Positions 2,025 to 11,588 of a DNA stretch of 64,000 nt are shown here, piece after piece. The DNA comes from Selenomonas sp. oral taxon 892 str. F0426. Its GTDB lineage: Bacteria; Bacillota; Negativicutes; Selenomonadales; Selenomonadaceae. Within the stretch, counting starts at the first letter, position 1, and every line of letters starts with the position of its first letter. The translations under genes and the position numbers were made by a program. The notes beneath the pieces were generated by a model. The model saw only the letters and a list, made by a program, of their open reading frames with translations. It was not told the origin of the DNA and ran no database searches. The stretch spans positions 1 through 64,000 of the forward strand of contig NZ_KI260535.1 in assembly GCF_000468035.1 (NCBI RefSeq). The letters are read 5' to 3'.

Positions 2025-2938
2025 CAAGCCCCCTCCTTCTGTGCTGCCGACATATGGTGTTTCCCCGTCTTCTGTTCTTCAGGCGCGGTATTCCAGCGCT
2101 TCTGGAACCAGATCCACTGCGTTGGATTCTCGCGAATGATCTGCTCGACGATCGCTGTCATCTGCACTGTAAATTCGTGAAGATCCCGGTCGCTGTCCCC
2201 CGTATCCGGACAGCGCATGATCTCACCGACGACGACCTTGTGCTTGCCATTCGGCTGACGCAGGATAAACGCAGGCACCACAGGCGATTTGAATTTACGT
2301 GAAAAGACGGCAGGACCAAGCGGCGTGGATGCTGTGCGCCCAAAGAACTCGATAAATGCACCGCCGGGGCCGCCGTCCTGATCCGCCAAAAAACCAAGGA
2401 GACGTCCGCGCTTGAGCGCCCGCGCCGCCGCGATCAGCTCACTCGTCCCGCGCGAGAATATCTCAACGTGGATCGTCGCGCGCAGATCATCGAGAACACG
2501 CGTGTACTGAATGTTCGGCTGCGGCTTTGCGATTGCACTGACAGGGATTCCATTCAGCGTAAACGCAGCTGAGAGCCACTCCCAACAGCCGATATGCCCC
2601 GTGAGCACGACGACACCGTGTCCCTCGGCGAGCGCCTCCTGCATACGTTCGAGATGGTCGATCTCGATGTAGTCACTGAGGTTCTTCTCGTTCAGCATCG
2701 GCATCGCAAGGATGTCGAGCACATTCCGTGCCATATTGATGAAGGAGGCACGCACGAGTTTCTTTGCCTCTGTCTCACCGATACCGAGGGCAGGCATCAT
2801 ATGCTCGACGGCGCGGTTTCGCATCTTCGGAATCAGCAGATAGTAGAAGTTGCCGAGCAGCCATCCTGCACCGAGCAGGAGGGGACGCGGCGTACGGCAC
2901 GCAAGCCAACTGAGAAACATGAGTGTATGGTAGAGCAC
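2024..2938 (-). CDS. lpxL: Lipid A biosynthesis acyltransferase (LpxL/HtrB family)
   Basis: A 304-residue protein of the lysophospholipid acyltransferase (HtrB/LpxL) family, which adds a secondary acyl chain to Kdo-lipid A at the inner membrane. The catalytic HX4E motif is visible in LTGHIGCWEW (about residues 115-124). An N-terminal hydrophobic segment (LLLGAGWLLGNFYYLLI) provides membrane association. The start is GTG, 7 bases after AGGAGG. It lies between kdsC and lptC. Whether it adds the first or second chain (LpxL or LpxM) cannot be told from sequence, and no second copy is present here. Confidence 0.9.
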   Translation of the reverse strand: MLYHTLMFLSWLACRTPRPLLLGAGWLLGNFYYLLIPKMRNRAVEHMMPALGIGETEAKKLVRASFINMARNVLDILAMPMLNEKNLSDYIEIDHLERMQEALAEGHGVVVLTGHIGCWEWLSAAFTLNGIPVSAIAKPQPNIQYTRVLDDLRATIHVEIFSRGTSELIAAARALKRGRLLGFLADQDGGPGGAFIEFFGRTASTPLGPAVFSRKFKSPVVPAFILRQPNGKHKVVVGEIMRCPDTGDSDRDLHEFTVQMTAIVEQIIRENPTQWIWFQKRWNTAPEEQKTGKHHMSAAQKEGA

Positions 2939-2964
2939 TGCCGCACCTCCTTTTTGTTGCCTTG

Positions 2965-3522
2965 CTACTGGGCAACACTGTCAACATCTGTCTGAAATGA
3001 TGTAAGGACTCTGTCCCATACTCCTTGTGTCTTTAGGATGATTTCGTAGATCTCGCGCACAGCACCGCGGCCTCCACGCTCACCTGCAATGATTTGTGCG
3101 ATCTCACGCACCTCAGTCACGGCATCGCCGACTGCGCAAGGCAGTCCGACCATGCGCATGATGGGCAGATCGACAATGTCATCACCGATATAGGCAATCT
3201 CCTCATCGGAGAGCCCCGTCTTTGCCTTGATGTCCGCATAGGCGGCACGCTTGTCGAGGTTCCCCTGATAAACAAGATCGATATGCAGCTCTCTCGCACG
3301 GTTCTCAACAATGGATGAGGCACGCCCTGTGATGATGGCAGTCGAGAGTCCCACTTTACGTGCAAGCGTGATCGCAAGCCCATCCCGCACAAAGAAGGGT
3401 TTGTAGAGTTCACTGCCATCGGACGTAATATAGACTCCACCGTCCGTGAGTACCCCATCCACATCGAGAATGATGCATTTGATTTTTTTGGCACGCTCAA
3501 TTGCGCCCTCACGAATCGGCAT
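2965..3522 (-). CDS. kdsC: KDO-8-phosphate phosphatase KdsC
   Basis: A 185-residue HAD hydrolase of the small C0 type without a large cap, matching KdsC length. Motif I is DVDGVLTDGG (about 20-29), motif II is the Thr in IITGRAS, and the acidic motif is IGDDIVDLP. It removes phosphate from Kdo-8-P to release Kdo. The ATG overlaps the kdsD stop as TAATG. The neighbours kdsD and kdsA are the preceding steps, which fixes the substrate well. Confidence 0.95.
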   Translation of the reverse strand: MPIREGAIERAKKIKCIILDVDGVLTDGGVYITSDGSELYKPFFVRDGLAITLARKVGLSTAIITGRASSIVENRARELHIDLVYQGNLDKRAAYADIKAKTGLSDEEIAYIGDDIVDLPIMRMVGLPCAVGDAVTEVREIAQIIAGERGGRGAVREIYEIILKTQGVWDRVLTSFQTDVDSVAQ

Positions 3523-4502
3523 TAGACGACTCCCTGCCGCAGAAGATCGGTCAGATGGACAATGCCGACAGGAACGCCTGCATCATCGACAACGGGCAGC
3601 ACAGTAACAGGGCGCGGCTGATGCTTCTCCATGACGGAGAGCGCTGCCGCTGCCATCTTGTCCGGTGCGATCGTGAGCGGCGTGGAAAACATGATGCTCT
3701 CCACATCCTTATCAAGAAAGGTGTAATCCTTTGCGAGTGCGCGGCGAATGATGCCGTCTGTGACAAGTCCGATGAATTTGCCGTCCGCATCGACGACGGA
3801 GACAGCACCCAGCCCCTTGTCCGTCATGACGAAAAGCGCGTCCTTTGCCGTCGTATGGTAGGACACGACAGGATTTTCGTCTCCCGTATGCATGACGTTT
3901 GCAACCGTCAGAAGCAGCTTGCGTCCGAGCGCACCGCCCGGATGGAAGAGAGCGTAGTCCTCCTTCTTGAAATCACGCGCGGACATAAGCGCCATCGCAA
4001 TCGCATCACCCATCGCGAGCGTCGCCGTGGTCGAGGCAGTCGGCGCCAGCCCCAGGGGGCATGCTTCACGCTCGACGCCGATGTCAATGTAGAAGTCCGC
4101 ACTGCGCCCAAGCTGTGATTTACGCCGGCCGCACATAGCGATGATGCGCGCGCCGATGCGATGAATGATCGAGAGGATATTTACGACCTCGTTCGACTCG
4201 CCGCTGTTGGAGATAGCGATGACAATGTCGTCTGCCGTCACCATGCCGAGGTCGCCGTGAAACGCTTCTGCGGGGTGCATAAAGAAGGCCGGCGTCCCCG
4301 TACTCGCGAGCGTCGCCGCAATCTTGCGCCCGACGTGACCGGATTTGCCCATCCCCGTGACAACAATGCGAGCCTTGCAGTCCAGAATAGCCCGTACCGC
4401 CGCCTCAAAATCATCATCGATACGCTCCGCAAGCTGCGCGACTGATTTTGCCTCGAGTTCCAATGTCTCGATTGCTTTTTCCCGAATCGTGCTCTGTGCC
4501 AT
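3522..4502 (-). CDS. kdsD: D-arabinose-5-phosphate isomerase KdsD
   Basis: A 326-residue protein with an N-terminal SIS sugar isomerase domain (GMGKSGHVGRKIAATLAST, about 50-68) followed by two CBS domains in the last ~120 residues (NVMHTGDENPVV and SIMFSTPLTIAPDKMAAAAL). It converts ribulose-5-phosphate to arabinose-5-phosphate, the substrate of KdsA. Length and domain order match KdsD/KpsF. It sits 9 bases downstream of kdsA and overlaps kdsC by one base, within the Kdo block kdsB-kdsA-kdsD-kdsC. Confidence 0.95.
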   Translation of the reverse strand: MAQSTIREKAIETLELEAKSVAQLAERIDDDFEAAVRAILDCKARIVVTGMGKSGHVGRKIAATLASTGTPAFFMHPAEAFHGDLGMVTADDIVIAISNSGESNEVVNILSIIHRIGARIIAMCGRRKSQLGRSADFYIDIGVEREACPLGLAPTASTTATLAMGDAIAMALMSARDFKKEDYALFHPGGALGRKLLLTVANVMHTGDENPVVSYHTTAKDALFVMTDKGLGAVSVVDADGKFIGLVTDGIIRRALAKDYTFLDKDVESIMFSTPLTIAPDKMAAAALSVMEKHQPRPVTVLPVVDDAGVPVGIVHLTDLLRQGVV

Positions 4503-5412: not shown

Positions 5413-5441
5413 ATTATAGAGTTTTCGCTGACATCGGTCAA
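5413..5441 (-). promoter_or_regulatory. Promoter for kdsA-lptB sub-operon
   Basis: Minus-strand TTGACC (5436-5441), 17-base spacer, TATAAT (5413-5418). The -10 is a perfect match and the -35 is 5 of 6. The -35 overlaps the last codons of kdsB, so this is an internal promoter in the LPS operon. Confidence 0.75.
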
Positions 5442-6172
5442 TAAATGCCTTCTCTTTGATAGACTTCGTTAACCGCTGCAAGGTCCTCCTCGGTATCCAC
5501 TCCGATAAAGACGGCATCCGTCTCAATGACGCGGATCGTGTGCCCGTTCTCGATCGCGCGCAGCTGCTCGAGGGACTCAGAGAGCTCGAGCGGTGTCTGT
5601 GACATGCGTGCATAATCGAGCAAAAAATCTCGACGATACGCATAAATTCCAATATGCTTGTAGACCTTTGCCCCCGGATTGCGCGCATATGGAATGCGTG
5701 CGCGTGAGAAGTAGAGCGCATTGCCCGAGTGGTCGGTGATGACCTTGACGTTGTTCGGGTTCGCTATCTCCTCCTCGTCCGTGAGCAGGGTCTTTGCCGT
5801 TGCCATCGGCAGCTGTTCATCTGTAAGGAAAGGCTCAACGAGCGCATCAATCACCGCAGGGTCAATAAGCGGCTCATCGCCCTGCACGTTGATGATGAGA
5901 TCGTAGTCCTGCATTTTCTCAGCCACCTCGGCGAGGCGATCTGTTCCCGTCGCATGATCCGTACGCGTCATAACAGCGCGTCCGCCATACTCCCCGACAG
6001 CGGCACAAATACGCTCATCGTCCGTCGCTACGACGACATCCTGCACGAGTTCTGCCCGTACGGCACGTTCGTAGACACGCACGATCATGGGCTTGCCCGC
6101 GATGTCGCACAGGGGCTTGCCCGGCAGACGCGTGGATGCGTAACGCGCGGGGATAATGCAGAGAACTTTCAT
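5438..6172 (-). CDS. kdsB: CMP-KDO synthetase KdsB
   Basis: A 244-residue nucleotidyltransferase that activates Kdo with CTP to CMP-Kdo, the donor for WaaA. The N-terminal signature is IPARYASTRLPGKPL (about 7-21), followed by RTDHATGTDRLAEV, VQGDEPLIDP and KHIGIYAYRR. Length and motifs match KdsB closely. It follows the WaaA-LpxK fusion gene by 19 bases, and a 98-base gap holding a promoter and hairpin separates it from kdsA. Confidence 0.96.
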   Translation of the reverse strand: MKVLCIIPARYASTRLPGKPLCDIAGKPMIVRVYERAVRAELVQDVVVATDDERICAAVGEYGGRAVMTRTDHATGTDRLAEVAEKMQDYDLIINVQGDEPLIDPAVIDALVEPFLTDEQLPMATAKTLLTDEEEIANPNNVKVITDHSGNALYFSRARIPYARNPGAKVYKHIGIYAYRRDFLLDYARMSQTPLELSESLEQLRAIENGHTIRVIETDAVFIGVDTEEDLAAVNEVYQREGIY

Positions 6173-6191: not shown

Positions 6192-8705
6192 TTAGGATAC
6201 TGGTCTCAGTTTTGCCGCAAGCTGTTCCTCGAGCGTACGGAAGAACTCCTCCTGCCCCTTCTGGAACGTCACCTCGACAGAGATGACATACATGGGAATG
6301 CGCCACTTCGCACGCACAACATCTGCCGGTACCTTGACCGCATCCTTCTCCGTGATGATGATCGCCTCGACGCCCAGTGTCTCTGCACGGTACAGCACCT
6401 CTGCCATATCGCGTTCACCGTAGTCGTGATGATCGGGGTAGCGCATGCTCTCCACCATCTCGACGCCGAGATCGGCAAGTGTCTGCTCAAAGGAAGCGGG
6501 GTTGCCGATCGCTGAGACGGCAAGCACCTTCTTTCCCTCCATCTCCGTAACGGGGACGCCGCCTGCTGCGATGTCCTCGTACCAGTCGGAGAGGCGCACG
6601 AACTGGCGCGGCTGATGGATGCTCTCGATGATGAGCCCGTCCTGATTGTAGCTGCGGAACGTCTCCCAAATATGCTGAATCGCGCCTGGTGCCGCCTGGT
6701 CGACCTTCGTCATGAGGCAGACATCCGCACGATCGATGTGCGACAGCGGTTCACGCAGCGTGCCGCGCGGCAGGAGATAGCCGTTGCCGAATACGTTCAC
6801 TGCATCCACGAGCAGGATGTCCATGTCACGCGCAAGCTGCCAGTGCTGATAGCCATCATCGAGGATCGCCACCTCCGCGCCGAAATGCTCGATCGCATAG
6901 CGCCCCGTAACAGCACGTTTCGGGCCGATCAGAACGGGAACATCCGGCAAATGCTTTGCCAGCATGAACGCCTCGTCTCCCGCCGTCTCCGCGTCCATTT
7001 TGAGCGTACGCCCATCGGACACGATGCCGACTTCTCCGCGCCACTTCGCTCGGTAGCCGCGGTTGAGAATCGCCACGCGGTAGCCCATCGCGTGAATCGC
7101 ACGCGCGAGATGCTGCGCCGTCGGAGTCTTGCCCGTACCCCCAACCGTTACGTTGCCCAGACTGATGACGAAGCAGGGCAGCTGCTCCTTCTTCACCCAG
7201 CCAAGGCGGTACATCGTGAGTTTCAGATTGACGAGCTGCTCATAGATGAGCGAGAATGCGTAGAATATGCCCACGATAAGTCTGCGTGAAACACCGCGCA
7301 CGTCCTTGTCATGGACGAGATCGATAAAGTACGTCTGGAAATTTGCGACCTTCTGCGTTGCACGCACACGATGTGCGCTGATACGCTCCTGCGCACGAAG
7401 GGCACGCCGGGCCTCGTACGCTGCGAGCATATCGACGAGGATCTGTGCCGACTTTGCAGACGCGCCCTTGTTCTCATTGATGATGGCAAGCGTCTCGTGT
7501 TCGAGTCGCGCACGTTCCTCCGCATTACCAAAGAGACGCAGGGTCTCGCGCACCAGCTCTTCTCCATTCGTGACTGTCACAACAGCATTGCGGTTGCGGA
7601 AGAGCGCATGGATGTCCTTAAAGTTGAACATCTGATTGCCGACGATGATCGCCTTTCCGTGTGCCGCCGGTTCGAGGATGTTGTGCCCGCCGTGCGGGAT
7701 AAGGCTGCCGCCGATGTAGATCACATCGCCGAGTCCATAGACGCGCCCCAGCTCGCCAACCGTATCGAGGATGACGATGTCCTCGCCGCCCTCTGCCCCC
7801 TTCTGCAGGTTCTTGCGCGTGTTGACTGTAAAGCCTGCCTTGCGGCAGAGATGCTCCACCTCGATGGTACGCAGCACCTCGCGCGGGGCAATGATGAGGC
7901 GCACCTTCGGGTCATGCTCGCGCACGGCGGCAAATGCCGCAAGCACGAGTTCCTCCTCACCGCGATGCGTCGATCCCGCGATCATGATGTGGCTCGCCCC
8001 CTCCAGGCCGAGCTCCTTGATGAGCGCGGCCCGTTCCTCAGGGCTGACACTCGTATACGCCTGATCGAACTTCGTGTTGCCTGTGACCGTGACAAGTTCG
8101 CGCGGCGCACCGAGACGCATGATATAGTCCGCATCGATGCTCGACTGCATCGCAAAACATTTCACCGTTCCGATCATCTCGCGCAGCATGCCGAGCAAAT
8201 ATTTATACTGCTTCACGCTGCGGTCGCTGATGCGGCCGTTGACCATCATGACGGGGACATCGAGCTGCTTTGCCTTCTTGAGAAAGTTCGGCCACAGCTC
8301 CGTCTCCACGGGCAGAAACACACGCGGCCGAATGCGTCCGACAACGCGTGAGGCGAGAAATGGCAAATCGAGCGGGAAGTAGATGATCGCATCCGCATCC
8401 TTGATGATGCGATGTGCCATCTCGTAGCCGCCCGTCGTCACGACCGAGACGAGGATGGGGCTGTCGGGGAACTTTTTACGGAACTCGCGGACAAGCGGAC
8501 TGGTCGCCACGATCTCACCGACGGACGCCGCATGCACCCAAATCGCATTTTTCCCCGCCACCTTGTCGATGGTCTCAGGCGGATAGAAGCCGAAGCTCTG
8601 CTTGATGCGCTCAACAAAGCCGCGCTCACGTGTCGCGCGCAGCAAGAAGATCGGTATGATGATGGTGACGATGAGGATTGCCGCTAAGTTATACAGGAAT
8701 CTCAT
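6192..8705 (-). CDS. waaA-lpxK: Fused Kdo transferase (WaaA) and lipid A 4'-kinase (LpxK)
   Basis: A single 837-residue reading frame with two enzymes. Residues ~1-430 are a GT30 Kdo transferase: N-terminal membrane helix (about 4-22), the Glu of RGFVERIKQSFG, VHAASVGEI (57-65), PVETELWPN (132-140), STHRGEE, and HGGHNILEPA (338-347). Residues ~470-837 are LpxK: membrane-proximal segment and P-loop SLGNVTVGGTGKTP (515-528), then LNRGYRAK and LDDGYQHW. LpxK normally phosphorylates the disaccharide at 4' before WaaA adds Kdo, so the order in the protein is the reverse of the pathway. The ATG at 8705 lies 7 bases after GGGGAG and 2 bases beyond the msbA stop. I see no stop or frameshift between the halves. 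Confidence 0.95.
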   Translation of the reverse strand: MRFLYNLAAILIVTIIIPIFLLRATRERGFVERIKQSFGFYPPETIDKVAGKNAIWVHAASVGEIVATSPLVREFRKKFPDSPILVSVVTTGGYEMAHRIIKDADAIIYFPLDLPFLASRVVGRIRPRVFLPVETELWPNFLKKAKQLDVPVMMVNGRISDRSVKQYKYLLGMLREMIGTVKCFAMQSSIDADYIMRLGAPRELVTVTGNTKFDQAYTSVSPEERAALIKELGLEGASHIMIAGSTHRGEEELVLAAFAAVREHDPKVRLIIAPREVLRTIEVEHLCRKAGFTVNTRKNLQKGAEGGEDIVILDTVGELGRVYGLGDVIYIGGSLIPHGGHNILEPAAHGKAIIVGNQMFNFKDIHALFRNRNAVVTVTNGEELVRETLRLFGNAEERARLEHETLAIINENKGASAKSAQILVDMLAAYEARRALRAQERISAHRVRATQKVANFQTYFIDLVHDKDVRGVSRRLIVGIFYAFSLIYEQLVNLKLTMYRLGWVKKEQLPCFVISLGNVTVGGTGKTPTAQHLARAIHAMGYRVAILNRGYRAKWRGEVGIVSDGRTLKMDAETAGDEAFMLAKHLPDVPVLIGPKRAVTGRYAIEHFGAEVAILDDGYQHWQLARDMDILLVDAVNVFGNGYLLPRGTLREPLSHIDRADVCLMTKVDQAAPGAIQHIWETFRSYNQDGLIIESIHQPRQFVRLSDWYEDIAAGGVPVTEMEGKKVLAVSAIGNPASFEQTLADLGVEMVESMRYPDHHDYGERDMAEVLYRAETLGVEAIIITEKDAVKVPADVVRAKWRIPMYVISVEVTFQKGQEEFFRTLEEQLAAKLRPVS

Positions 8706-8707
8706 AA

Positions 8708-10432
8708 TCACTCTCCCCGAAACTGAATATCATAAAGATGCTGATAGAGTCCGTCCTTCGCAAGCAGTGCCTCGTGTGTCCCCTGCTCCACGATATGTCC
8801 GCCGTCAATCACATAGATGCGGTCAGCGTTAAAGACCGTCGAAAGGCGATGTGCGATGACAAAGCTCGTACGTCCAACCATAAGATTATCGAGCGCCGCT
8901 TGTACGATCTTCTCGCTCTCCGTATCGAGCGCAGAGGTCGCCTCATCGAGGATGAGGATGCGCGGATCCTTGAGAATCGCGCGTGCAATGGCGACACGCT
9001 GCCGCTGGCCGCCAGAAATGCTGATGCCGCGCTCTCCGATCTTCGTATCGTACCCATGCTCGAGTTCCATAATGAAGTTATGTGCATTCGCTGCGCGTGC
9101 CGCTTCCTCGATCTCTGCATCCGTCGCATCGAGGCGACCATAGCGAATGTTCTCACGAACCGTTGTCGAGAACAGCATCGTCTCCTGCGGCACAAGTCCA
9201 ATCTGACCGCGCAGAGAAGCGAGCGTCACATCGCGGATGTCATGTCCGTCCACCGTGATCGCGCCGCTGCTCACCTCGTAGAAGCGCGGTATGAGGTTTG
9301 CAATCGTCGACTTGCCCGCACCCGAAGGTCCGACAAAGGCGATCATCTCGCCAGGAGCCGCCTCAAGCGTAATGCCCGCGAGCGCAGGACGCCCCTCCTT
9401 GTAGGAGAACGTCACGTTGTCAAAGCGCACATGCCCCTCGACTGGGGGGAGCGGCTTGGCGTTCGGACGATCTGTAATGCTTTCCTCAAGATCGACAATG
9501 GAAAATACACGATCAACCGCCGCCATTGCCTTTTGGAGGTTGCCGTAGATGCGCGAGAGACGCTTGACTGGATTTGCAAGGTTGACGGCATACGTGAGGA
9601 ACGCGACAAACGCACCTGCTGTGATATCGCCGTTGACGACCTCGTAGCCGCCAAACCAGACAATAAAGGTGACGGCAATCGCGGCGAGGAATTCAACCGT
9701 CGGCGTGAGCATACTCGTCTGCTGAACATTCTTCATCACTGCATCGAAATTACGCTGATTCGAGTGCACGAAACGGTCGATCTCATAGTCCTCACGCACG
9801 AAGGACTTCACAACGCGCGTTGCCGAGAAGCTTTCCTGCAGCAGTGCCGTGATCTCAGCAAGGCGCTCCTGAATGACCGTGCTCGACTTCTTGATCTTGC
9901 GTCCGAAGATCTTCATTGCCTGTCCAACCATTGGAATAACGACAAGTGTCAAGAGAGAGAGCTTCCAGTCGAGGTAGAACATGAGGACAAGGGAGCCAAT
10001 GAGAATGCAGCCCTCCGTCACGAGGTCAATGAGGTTGTCCACGAGGGCCGCCTGAATCGCAGCGACATCATTCGTAACATAGCTCATGATCTCGCCCGTC
10101 TGGTGACGGTCATAGTACGCGAGCGGCATCCGCTGGAATTTGCGGAACATGACCTCGCGCACATCAATGATAACCTTCTGTCCGATGTAGGAGACGAGAT
10201 ACGACTGCCCAAAGTAAAAAATCCCGCGCAGGAAGAAGATGACAACGATGCCGATGCAGATGGCGTTCAGCAGCGCCATGTTCTTGTCGGCAAGCACGTC
10301 GTCGATCATATCCTTGATGATCCACGGGACGTAGAGATTCGCTCCAGAAGCGAGGATGATGCACACGATCGCGAGCGCGAGTTTATTCACGTACGGCCGC
10401 ATATAGGCAAGCAGTCTCTTGTAATTCTTCAT
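8708..10432 (-). CDS. msbA: Lipid A export ABC transporter MsbA
   Basis: A 574-residue half-transporter: an N-terminal membrane domain of six helices (about 15-310) and a C-terminal nucleotide-binding domain with Walker A VGPSGAGKST, signature SISGGQRQR and Walker B ILILDEATSALD. It flips lipid A-core across the inner membrane. Position between lpxB and waaA-lpxK supports the MsbA role over a generic multidrug exporter, which has the same architecture. Confidence 0.92.
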   Translation of the reverse strand: MKNYKRLLAYMRPYVNKLALAIVCIILASGANLYVPWIIKDMIDDVLADKNMALLNAICIGIVVIFFLRGIFYFGQSYLVSYIGQKVIIDVREVMFRKFQRMPLAYYDRHQTGEIMSYVTNDVAAIQAALVDNLIDLVTEGCILIGSLVLMFYLDWKLSLLTLVVIPMVGQAMKIFGRKIKKSSTVIQERLAEITALLQESFSATRVVKSFVREDYEIDRFVHSNQRNFDAVMKNVQQTSMLTPTVEFLAAIAVTFIVWFGGYEVVNGDITAGAFVAFLTYAVNLANPVKRLSRIYGNLQKAMAAVDRVFSIVDLEESITDRPNAKPLPPVEGHVRFDNVTFSYKEGRPALAGITLEAAPGEMIAFVGPSGAGKSTIANLIPRFYEVSSGAITVDGHDIRDVTLASLRGQIGLVPQETMLFSTTVRENIRYGRLDATDAEIEEAARAANAHNFIMELEHGYDTKIGERGISISGGQRQRVAIARAILKDPRILILDEATSALDTESEKIVQAALDNLMVGRTSFVIAHRLSTVFNADRIYVIDGGHIVEQGTHEALLAKDGLYQHLYDIQFRGE

Positions 10433-10454
10433 AGCTCTCCTAGTGGGAAATGTA

Positions 10455-11588
10455 TTATGTACGCTTTGCGCGCGCGAAAATCTTCTCTGCTACGCGGCGC
10501 GCTGCATTTGGTTCGCCGAGTTCGGCAACGGCTCGCGCAAGGCAATCCGTCACATAGTCACGCTCTGTGCCGTCCACGATGATCCGCTCCATCGCCTCCG
10601 CGATGCGGTCAGGCTGCACCGCGTCCTGCAGCAACTCCGTCTCAAAAGTCTCTCCGAGCAGGATGTTCGGCAGCGAGAAGCGCGGCACATCGACGAGCAG
10701 GCGCCCGACGAGATAGGAGAGCGCAGACATACGGTAGAGAACGACAGCGGGCAGCCCCATAATGGCCGCCTCCATGATGACTGTTCCAGACGCCGCAATC
10801 GCTGCACGCGCAATGCTCATTAGCGCATAGCGTGCGTCATGAGTGAGCGTAACCGTAACGGAGGAGGCAGCAAGATGCTTCTCGAGCTGCGTGACATCCA
10901 CGCCGCCCGCGACAGGCAGGAAGAACCGCCGTGCGGGGTCACGCGCGGCGAGGATTTCTGCCGCTCCGAGCATGGACGGCAGTAGCCGTTCGATCTCCTC
11001 GCGCCGGCTGCCGGGCATGAGGAGGATTGGAACATCATCCGCGCCGATGCCAAAGTGATGCCGTGCCTCCTCTGCGTCCATCTCCGCATGCACCGTATCG
11101 ATGAGCGGATTCCCGACGAAGGAGATGTTCGCCCCCGCCTCCTCATAGGGCGGCAGTTCGTGCGGAAAGATCGCGACAATCTCATCCGCAAGTGCGGCGC
11201 AGGACTTCGCGCGTCCCTTGCGCCACGCCCACGCAGAGGGCGGAATATAAGAAAAAACGGGGATTCCCCGCTCTTTCGCCCGCGCCGCGAGCTGCCAATT
11301 AAAGTCCGGATAGTCGATGATGACAAGCACATCCGGCCGCTCCTCCTCCATGAGCCGCGTAAGGTCATCGAGAAGGGCAAAGATACGCCTGAGATTCAGC
11401 AGTACCGCCGAGATGCCCATGACGTTGTAGTCCACATAGTTTTGGCGGAGCTTCACTCCCGCCGCCTCCATCTCCGCTCCGCCAAATCCGATCAGCGAAA
11501 CGGTGGGGTCAAGTGCGCACAGCTCACGCGCGAGCGCCGCCCCGTGGAGGTCGCCCGAGGTCTCCCCCGCCGAAAGCATAATTTTCAA
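10455..11588 (-). CDS. lpxB: Lipid-A-disaccharide synthase LpxB
   Basis: A 377-residue GT19 glycosyltransferase. The N-terminal signature is SAGETSGDLHGAAL (about 6-19). Other LpxB motifs are VLVIIDYPDFNW, SYIPPSAWAWRKGR and FVGNPLIDTV. It joins lipid X to UDP-2,3-diacylglucosamine to form the tetraacyl disaccharide. The start is TTG (11586-11588), 7 bases after GGGAG; an ATG three codons later is the alternative. It follows lpxI, which makes its lipid X substrate, by 12 bases. Confidence 0.95.
   Translation of the reverse strand: MKIMLSAGETSGDLHGAALARELCALDPTVSLIGFGGAEMEAAGVKLRQNYVDYNVMGISAVLLNLRRIFALLDDLTRLMEEERPDVLVIIDYPDFNWQLAARAKERGIPVFSYIPPSAWAWRKGRAKSCAALADEIVAIFPHELPPYEEAGANISFVGNPLIDTVHAEMDAEEARHHFGIGADDVPILLMPGSRREEIERLLPSMLGAAEILAARDPARRFFLPVAGGVDVTQLEKHLAASSVTVTLTHDARYALMSIARAAIAASGTVIMEAAIMGLPAVVLYRMSALSYLVGRLLVDVPRFSLPNILLGETFETELLQDAVQPDRIAEAMERIIVDGTERDYVTDCLARAVAELGEPNAARRVAEKIFARAKRT

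Follow-up and report, generated by a model that had tools for sequence, protein, structure and literature searches.

Genomic context of the fused gene

The window analysed here is a stretch of 64,000 nucleotides from Selenomonas sp. oral taxon 892 str. F0426 (contig NZ_KI260535.1, positions 1 to 64,000). It carries a gene in which waaA, encoding the Kdo transferase, is joined to lpxK, encoding the lipid A 4'-kinase. Both enzymes serve the assembly of the outer-membrane lipid of Gram-negative bacteria, at consecutive steps. The gene and its immediate surroundings are as follows:

8708..10432, minus strand: msbA-type ABC transporter gene, immediately upstream of the fusion gene (ORF, Pfam and sequence)
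8711..8718, minus strand: ribosome-binding site ggggagag of the fusion gene, directly before the ATG at 8705 (sequence)
6192..8705, minus strand: waaA–lpxK fusion gene (ORF, Pfam/NCBIfam, kept in 80 named loci)
5438..6172, minus strand: kdsB (CMP-Kdo synthetase), immediately downstream after a gap of 19 nt (ORF and family scan)

The fusion frame comprises 837 codons and runs without interruption from the ATG at 8705 to the TAA at 6194–6192 on the minus strand, a strand that the original prediction had not given and that is added here. The computed mass of the encoded protein is 93.5 kDa. An in-frame GTG at 8711 is an alternative start, which would lengthen the protein by 2 aa, and the msbA stop codon (8708–8710) lies 2 nt upstream of the ATG.

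The gene is part of a compact minus-strand lipid A/Kdo/Lpt operon with the order, in the direction of transcription, lpxC, fabZ, lpxA, lpxI, lpxB, msbA, waaA–lpxK, kdsB, kdsA, kdsD, kdsC, an LpxL-type acyltransferase gene, lptC, lptA, and lptB. The genes from lpxA to lptB were identified by family scans, lptA being a weak match under its curated cut-off, while lpxC and fabZ were identified from ORF translations. The same clustered lpx/waaA/kds region belongs to the lipid A, Kdo, and LPS-export cluster previously described for the Negativicutes (Antunes et al. 2016, PMC5007114). No other copy of waaA or lpxK was found elsewhere in the genome, each domain being single-copy. Two long open frames lie antisense to this region, one of 346 aa opposite the fusion gene (7311-8351, plus strand) and one of 614 aa opposite msbA (8738-10582, plus strand); both are probably by-products of the codon usage of the genome.

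All 80 named loci fetched contain the fused frame, with 62–98% identity over essentially the full length. The single unbroken 837-residue frame that had been predicted is thus borne out by the ORF, its Pfam domains, and its conservation, and no stop codon or frameshift interrupts the junction in these loci. The frame errors seen in individual relatives, such as G149 and G256, could speak for a sequencing or assembly artefact that merged two neighboring genes. However, a frame conserved at full length in 80 independently sequenced named genomes and MAGs is explained neither by chance nor by assembly error, and the probability that we attach to an artefact is close to nil. As for the single relatives, small indels break the frame in G149 (locus L162, from the genus of the window, with a 2-nt difference near residue 305) and in G256 (locus L163), which may reflect either sequencing error or real decay. 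In G250, the fused frame is shortened to 683 aa.

Active sites of the two halves

The N-terminal half corresponds to WaaA:

7422..8705, minus strand: WaaA (Kdo transferase) part, residues 1–428 (Glycos_transf_N, NF004388, Foldseek 2xci and 4bfc)
8628..8702, minus strand: N-terminal hydrophobic helix of WaaA, residues 2–26 (predicted structure and hydropathy)
8514..8516, minus strand: Glu64, equivalent of Aquifex WaaA E31 (alignment to 2xci; 60/60 fused proteins)
8304..8306, minus strand: Glu134, equivalent of Aquifex WaaA E98 (alignment to 2xci; 60/60 fused proteins)
7665..7694, minus strand: HGGHNILEPA motif, residues 338–347, CMP-Kdo site (sequence position and residue conservation)

The Glycos_transf_N domain matches residues 33–215 (E 1e-57, 194.6 bits against a Pfam gathering score of 23.9). 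The NCBIfam model NF004388 gives a strong match over residues 1–426, but its 365 bits stay under the equivalog cut-off of 438, and other lineage-specific WaaA models score lower, which counts against the reading of a bifunctional enzyme; these equivalog cut-offs are those of lineage-specific models and do not define the WaaA family. The GT-B fold of this half was recognized by Foldseek in the predicted structure (2xci_A, E 1e-22; 4bfc, E 1e-10). Residue equivalences were derived from alignments to the solved Aquifex enzymes (WaaA 2xci and LpxK 4ehx), and conservation was scored in a sample of 60 fused proteins drawn from across the class. Aquifex E31, E98, K162, R212, N273, and E276 correspond to E64, E134, K212, R275, N342, and E345, all of them kept in 60/60 fused proteins; H341, N342, and E345 of the HGGHNILEPA motif are invariant.

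The C-terminal half is a complete LpxK:

6195..7340, minus strand: LpxK (lipid A 4'-kinase) part, residues 456–837 (PF02606, TIGR00682, Foldseek 4ehx)
7206..7292, minus strand: helix 472–500, equivalent of the N-terminal amphipathic membrane helix of LpxK (predicted structure; the 4ehx alignment begins there)
7122..7142, minus strand: P-loop GGTGKTP, residues 522–528, with K526 and T527 equivalent to Aquifex LpxK K51 and T52 (alignment and conservation)
6972..6977, minus strand: Asp577–Glu578, equivalents of LpxK D99/E100 (alignment and conservation)
6852..6860, minus strand: Walker B Asp-Asp-Gly, residues 616–618, D138/D139 (alignment and conservation)
6429..6431, minus strand: His759, equivalent of LpxK H261, the catalytic base (alignment and conservation)

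PF02606 matches residues 481–827 (E 2e-88, 297 bits against 27), and the TIGR00682 LpxK equivalog score is above its curated cut-off (194.3 against 91.95). The equivalents of Aquifex K51, T52, R72, D99, E100, D138, D139, H143, and H261 are all kept, and K526, T527, D577, E578, D616, D617, and H759 are found in 60/60 fused proteins. At LpxK alignment position 621 (Aquifex H143, lipid-binding), Tyr replaces His in 4 of 41 unfused LpxK proteins and in none of the fused ones.

Each half was also predicted to keep a membrane-associated segment, and the predicted structure and hydropathy agree. Helix 2–26 of WaaA is the most hydrophobic stretch of the protein, with a peak 19-residue hydropathy of 2.6 at residues 4–22. 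In LpxK, the predicted helix 472–500 is of mixed hydropathy and is putatively membrane-binding; the N-terminal amphipathic helix is needed for the activity of Aquifex LpxK (PMC6286764).

Fusions sometimes carry dead domains, and the fused protein might catalyze a single reaction, with one half vestigial. Nothing was found in favor of this reading, which we regard as highly improbable. Both predicted active-site motifs lie in the frame, HGGHNILEPA from residue 338 and GGTGKTP from residue 522. The 16 catalytic or binding residues examined across the two halves are all present in all 60 fused proteins, and both active sites are intact. In addition, the dN/dS ratios of the halves are similarly low (~0.05), and the genome has no second waaA or lpxK.

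The junction between WaaA and LpxK

7341..7421, minus strand: linker, residues 429–455, or about 429–449 in the strict sense (rich in Ala and Arg, modelled with low confidence, under purifying selection)
7356..7358, minus strand: codon 450 (ACG, Thr), at the position of the stand-alone lpxK start and not a start codon (comparison with unfused lpxK)

The original prediction described an Arg/Ala-rich linker of ~40 residues. The composition was correct, with 7 A and 6 R among 27 residues, but the length was not. The stand-alone LpxK of related genomes begins at the equivalent of about residue 450, so the real linker is ~21–27 residues long and the excess is the N-terminus of LpxK itself. The linker has a dN/dS of ~0.10, compared with ~0.05 in either flank (27 pairs within a genus-level group, the set being the window and its seven closest relatives, with proteins 92–98% identical and a linker of 27 codons). 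The junction is therefore selected as protein. Both the sequence and the length of the linker (~9–28 residues) vary between fused clades.

The frame might also yield a separate LpxK, by internal initiation or by proteolysis of the linker, beside or instead of the fusion. The linker is predicted to be flexible, hence cleavable. The old lpxK ATG survives in some recently fused relatives, one of which (G128) retains the ribosome site too, and a start codon with a ribosome-site match of 4 bases or longer is found near the junction in 22 of 140 fused frames. The start Met of lpxK, retained in some fused members of other families, is gone in most fused proteins of the Selenomonadaceae and of family f14. 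In the window, the old start is ACG, and no internal lpxK start with a ribosome site was found at the junction, the nearest candidate being a GTG (codon 447) that lacks a ribosome-site match. We consider a separate LpxK unlikely for these reasons. A linker selected as coding sequence and the loss of any lpxK start with a ribosome site favor a single bifunctional enzyme of ~93.5 kDa, which is by far the best reading of the sequence, the single product and both activities being what we infer from it.

Distribution of the fusion in the Negativicutes

The 80 named loci, fused without exception, are nearly all from the Selenomonadaceae (Selenomonas, Centipeda, Mitsuokella, Megamonas, Schwartzia, Propionispira, and MAGs, plus Quinella). 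A survey of the class was based on a draw of 300 genomes, with lpxK found in 293 of the 300. In families f1 (Selenomonadaceae, the family of the window) and f14, the listed genomes are fused save for a few broken frames or contig ends. Fused genes are also found in f2, f5, f7, f12, f16, f28, f32, and f33, with f12 represented by one genome that is cut at a contig end. Both states occur within f9, f17, and f22, and the remaining sampled families are unfused. The search in other Negativicutes proposed with the original prediction thus recovered the fusion in all the named relatives and in roughly a dozen of the family codes used for the class. The fusion is not a peculiarity of this strain; it is the norm in the Selenomonadaceae and in other families of the class, having arisen repeatedly through the joining of waaA and lpxK genes that already formed a pair. 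It is never universal in the class, and unfused pairs therefore work too.

Unfused genomes of the class in which both genes are readable always have a tandem waaA–lpxK pair in the same order. Relative to the waaA stop, the lpxK start is located between about −17 and +117 nt, so that the genes range from overlapping to ~117 nt apart, and often just one stop codon separates genes lying in the same frame. Outside the class, a full-length LpxK was found in seven genomes of the phylum, each time as a stand-alone protein; in six of these genomes, the few kilobases fetched contained no recognized waaA, and the pair is tandem in the seventh.

A different arrangement is seen in G021 of family f21 (L166, G021:C23:56000-64000; completeness estimate 100%), where waaA (2699-4075, minus strand) is followed directly by kdsB. 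No lpxK lies between these two genes and no LpxK match was found anywhere in this genome. Judging from its gene content, G021 may make its lipid A without the 4'-phosphate.

Number and mode of origins

On an RpoB tree, which is independent of the locus, the fused/unfused state requires six changes, of which well-supported branches force five, and a constraint uniting all fused genomes is rejected (AU p 3e-144). The WaaA+LpxK tree requires five changes, four of them forced, and likewise rejects the grouping of all fused genomes (AU p 8e-175). One ancestral fusion is rejected by the AU tests on both trees. Since the WaaA+LpxK tree also rejects a single origin, the transfer of a single fused gene fails as an explanation as well. 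The supported branches of these trees force at least four to five changes of state across the class.

Within genus g49 of family f22, two genomes are fused and six are split. The fused genomes, G031 and G128, fall into different supported subclades among unfused congeners on the WaaA+LpxK tree. Compared with these congeners, G128 has the waaA stop codon changed from TGA to TGG and lacks 2 nt just before lpxK, which brings the frames into register. The fusion of G128 (L194, compared with L197-L200) is recent, and the old ribosome site and ATG of lpxK remain inside the fused frame; this genome may still make some free LpxK.

The change counts alone do not separate gain from loss of the fusion. 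We favor repeated gain because LpxK is stand-alone outside the class and because of the G128 case. In this view, the ancestral genes formed a translationally coupled waaA–lpxK pair, which would have been fused several separate times through loss of the waaA stop codon along with small indels.

Proposed mechanism and possible value of the fusion

The predicted structure of the fused protein has two confident domains, matched by Foldseek to Aquifex LpxK (4ehx) and Aquifex WaaA (2xci). Confidence is low at residues 439–468, with pLDDT < 50 in the linker. This model leaves the relative orientation of the two halves unfixed (overall pTM 0.53). It therefore speaks neither for nor against strict channelling of intermediates, which the original prediction had raised as a possibility, and any gain in kinetics is a matter of conjecture.

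E. coli WaaA uses the non-phosphorylated disaccharide poorly, and LpxK is inactive on Kdo-bearing lipid (PMC6286764); LpxK must therefore precede WaaA. It was correctly noted in the original prediction that the order of the domains reverses the order of the reactions, but this calls for no special explanation, as the unfused pairs have the same gene order. With the reaction order set by substrate use, the domain order is irrelevant and simply inherits that of the tandem genes from which the fusion arose.

We propose that the LpxK half would make lipid IVA by phosphorylating the lipid A disaccharide at the 4' position. The WaaA half would then add Kdo to this lipid, using CMP-Kdo presumably supplied by the product of the neighboring kdsB, in an order dictated by substrate specificity rather than by domain order. 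The N-terminal helix of WaaA would anchor the chain, the short flexible linker would connect the halves, and the amphipathic helix of LpxK would position the kinase on the same membrane as WaaA. The covalent link most likely only sets a 1:1 ratio and keeps the two active sites together on one patch of membrane, and the benefit of such tethering would be a higher local concentration of lipid IVA for WaaA. Taken as a whole, the reading of one bifunctional membrane-surface enzyme with tethered halves, fused through loss of the waaA stop several separate times in the Negativicutes, is one that we hold to be very likely.

Why the genes were fused is a separate question. The fusion may be real but neutral or nearly so, an easy by-product of coupled, overlapping genes losing one stop codon and bringing no kinetic benefit. 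Fused and unfused genes coexist within f9, f17, f22, and genus g49, the unfused pairs are already adjacent and coupled, and the linker is conserved between fused clades neither in length nor in sequence. On the other hand, the fused state looks stable, as nearly all listed f1 and f14 genomes have it, the repeated convergence within one class suggests some advantage, and the linker is under purifying selection in the group of the window. We give a neutral origin somewhat less than an even chance, which makes it a serious rival for the why of the fusion, although not for what it is. It is rather doubtful that the fusion was convergent for a real advantage, namely a membrane-anchored unit in which lipid IVA would go straight from the kinase to the Kdo transferase, or in which the turnover of the two would be coupled. 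Were this the case, free lipid IVA or lipid A disaccharide would not accumulate in these diderm Firmicutes.

Comparison with known systems

The WaaA half shares with WaaA/KdtA of Aquifex (2xci) and Acinetobacter (4bfc) the Glycos_transf_N domain, a GT-B fold match, the catalytic Glu pair, the HGGHN motif, and the N-terminal hydrophobic helix. These solved relatives are stand-alone, whereas here WaaA continues at its C-terminal end into a linker and a whole LpxK. With Aquifex LpxK (4ehx and 4lkv), the other half shares the P-loop, the Walker B motif, the D99/E100/H261 equivalents, and the N-terminal amphipathic helix, but its N-terminus is joined to WaaA and it lacks a separate start codon.

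Tandem waaA–lpxK genes are an often-found cluster of consecutive steps (Opiyo et al. 2010, PMC3087551). The two genes had been expected to be separate in Proteobacteria, which holds for E. coli; in Sinorhizobium plasmid records (e.g., CP090106.1:900848-903832), they are adjacent and in the same order, although they are still two genes giving two proteins, compared with one protein here. The lpxC/fabZ fusion of Bacteroidetes, Chlorobi, and Verrucomicrobia (PMC3087551) is likewise a single gene made from two neighbors in the lipid A cluster, but it involves other enzymes, which do not catalyze consecutive steps of the same pathway branch.

The main text of the study that described the Negativicutes cluster (Antunes et al. 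2016, PMC5007114) makes no mention of a waaA–lpxK fusion. A literature search limited to open-licence PMC papers found no description of the fusion or of its repeated origin. Long LpxK entries with a WaaA–LpxK architecture presumably exist in public protein databases, and the fused protein itself is therefore probably catalogued. The recurrence of the fusion appears to be the new part, and we claim no priority for it.

Two implications follow for the Negativicutes. A survey that looks for LpxK and WaaA as two proteins may misname or miss one of the activities in the Selenomonadaceae and the other fused families. Moreover, successive genes of an essential envelope pathway were fused several times in one class, and twice in one genus, with unfused sisters in existence. 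This is a natural experiment in which the usefulness of such fusions, through tethering, stoichiometry, or channelling, becomes directly testable against mere accident.
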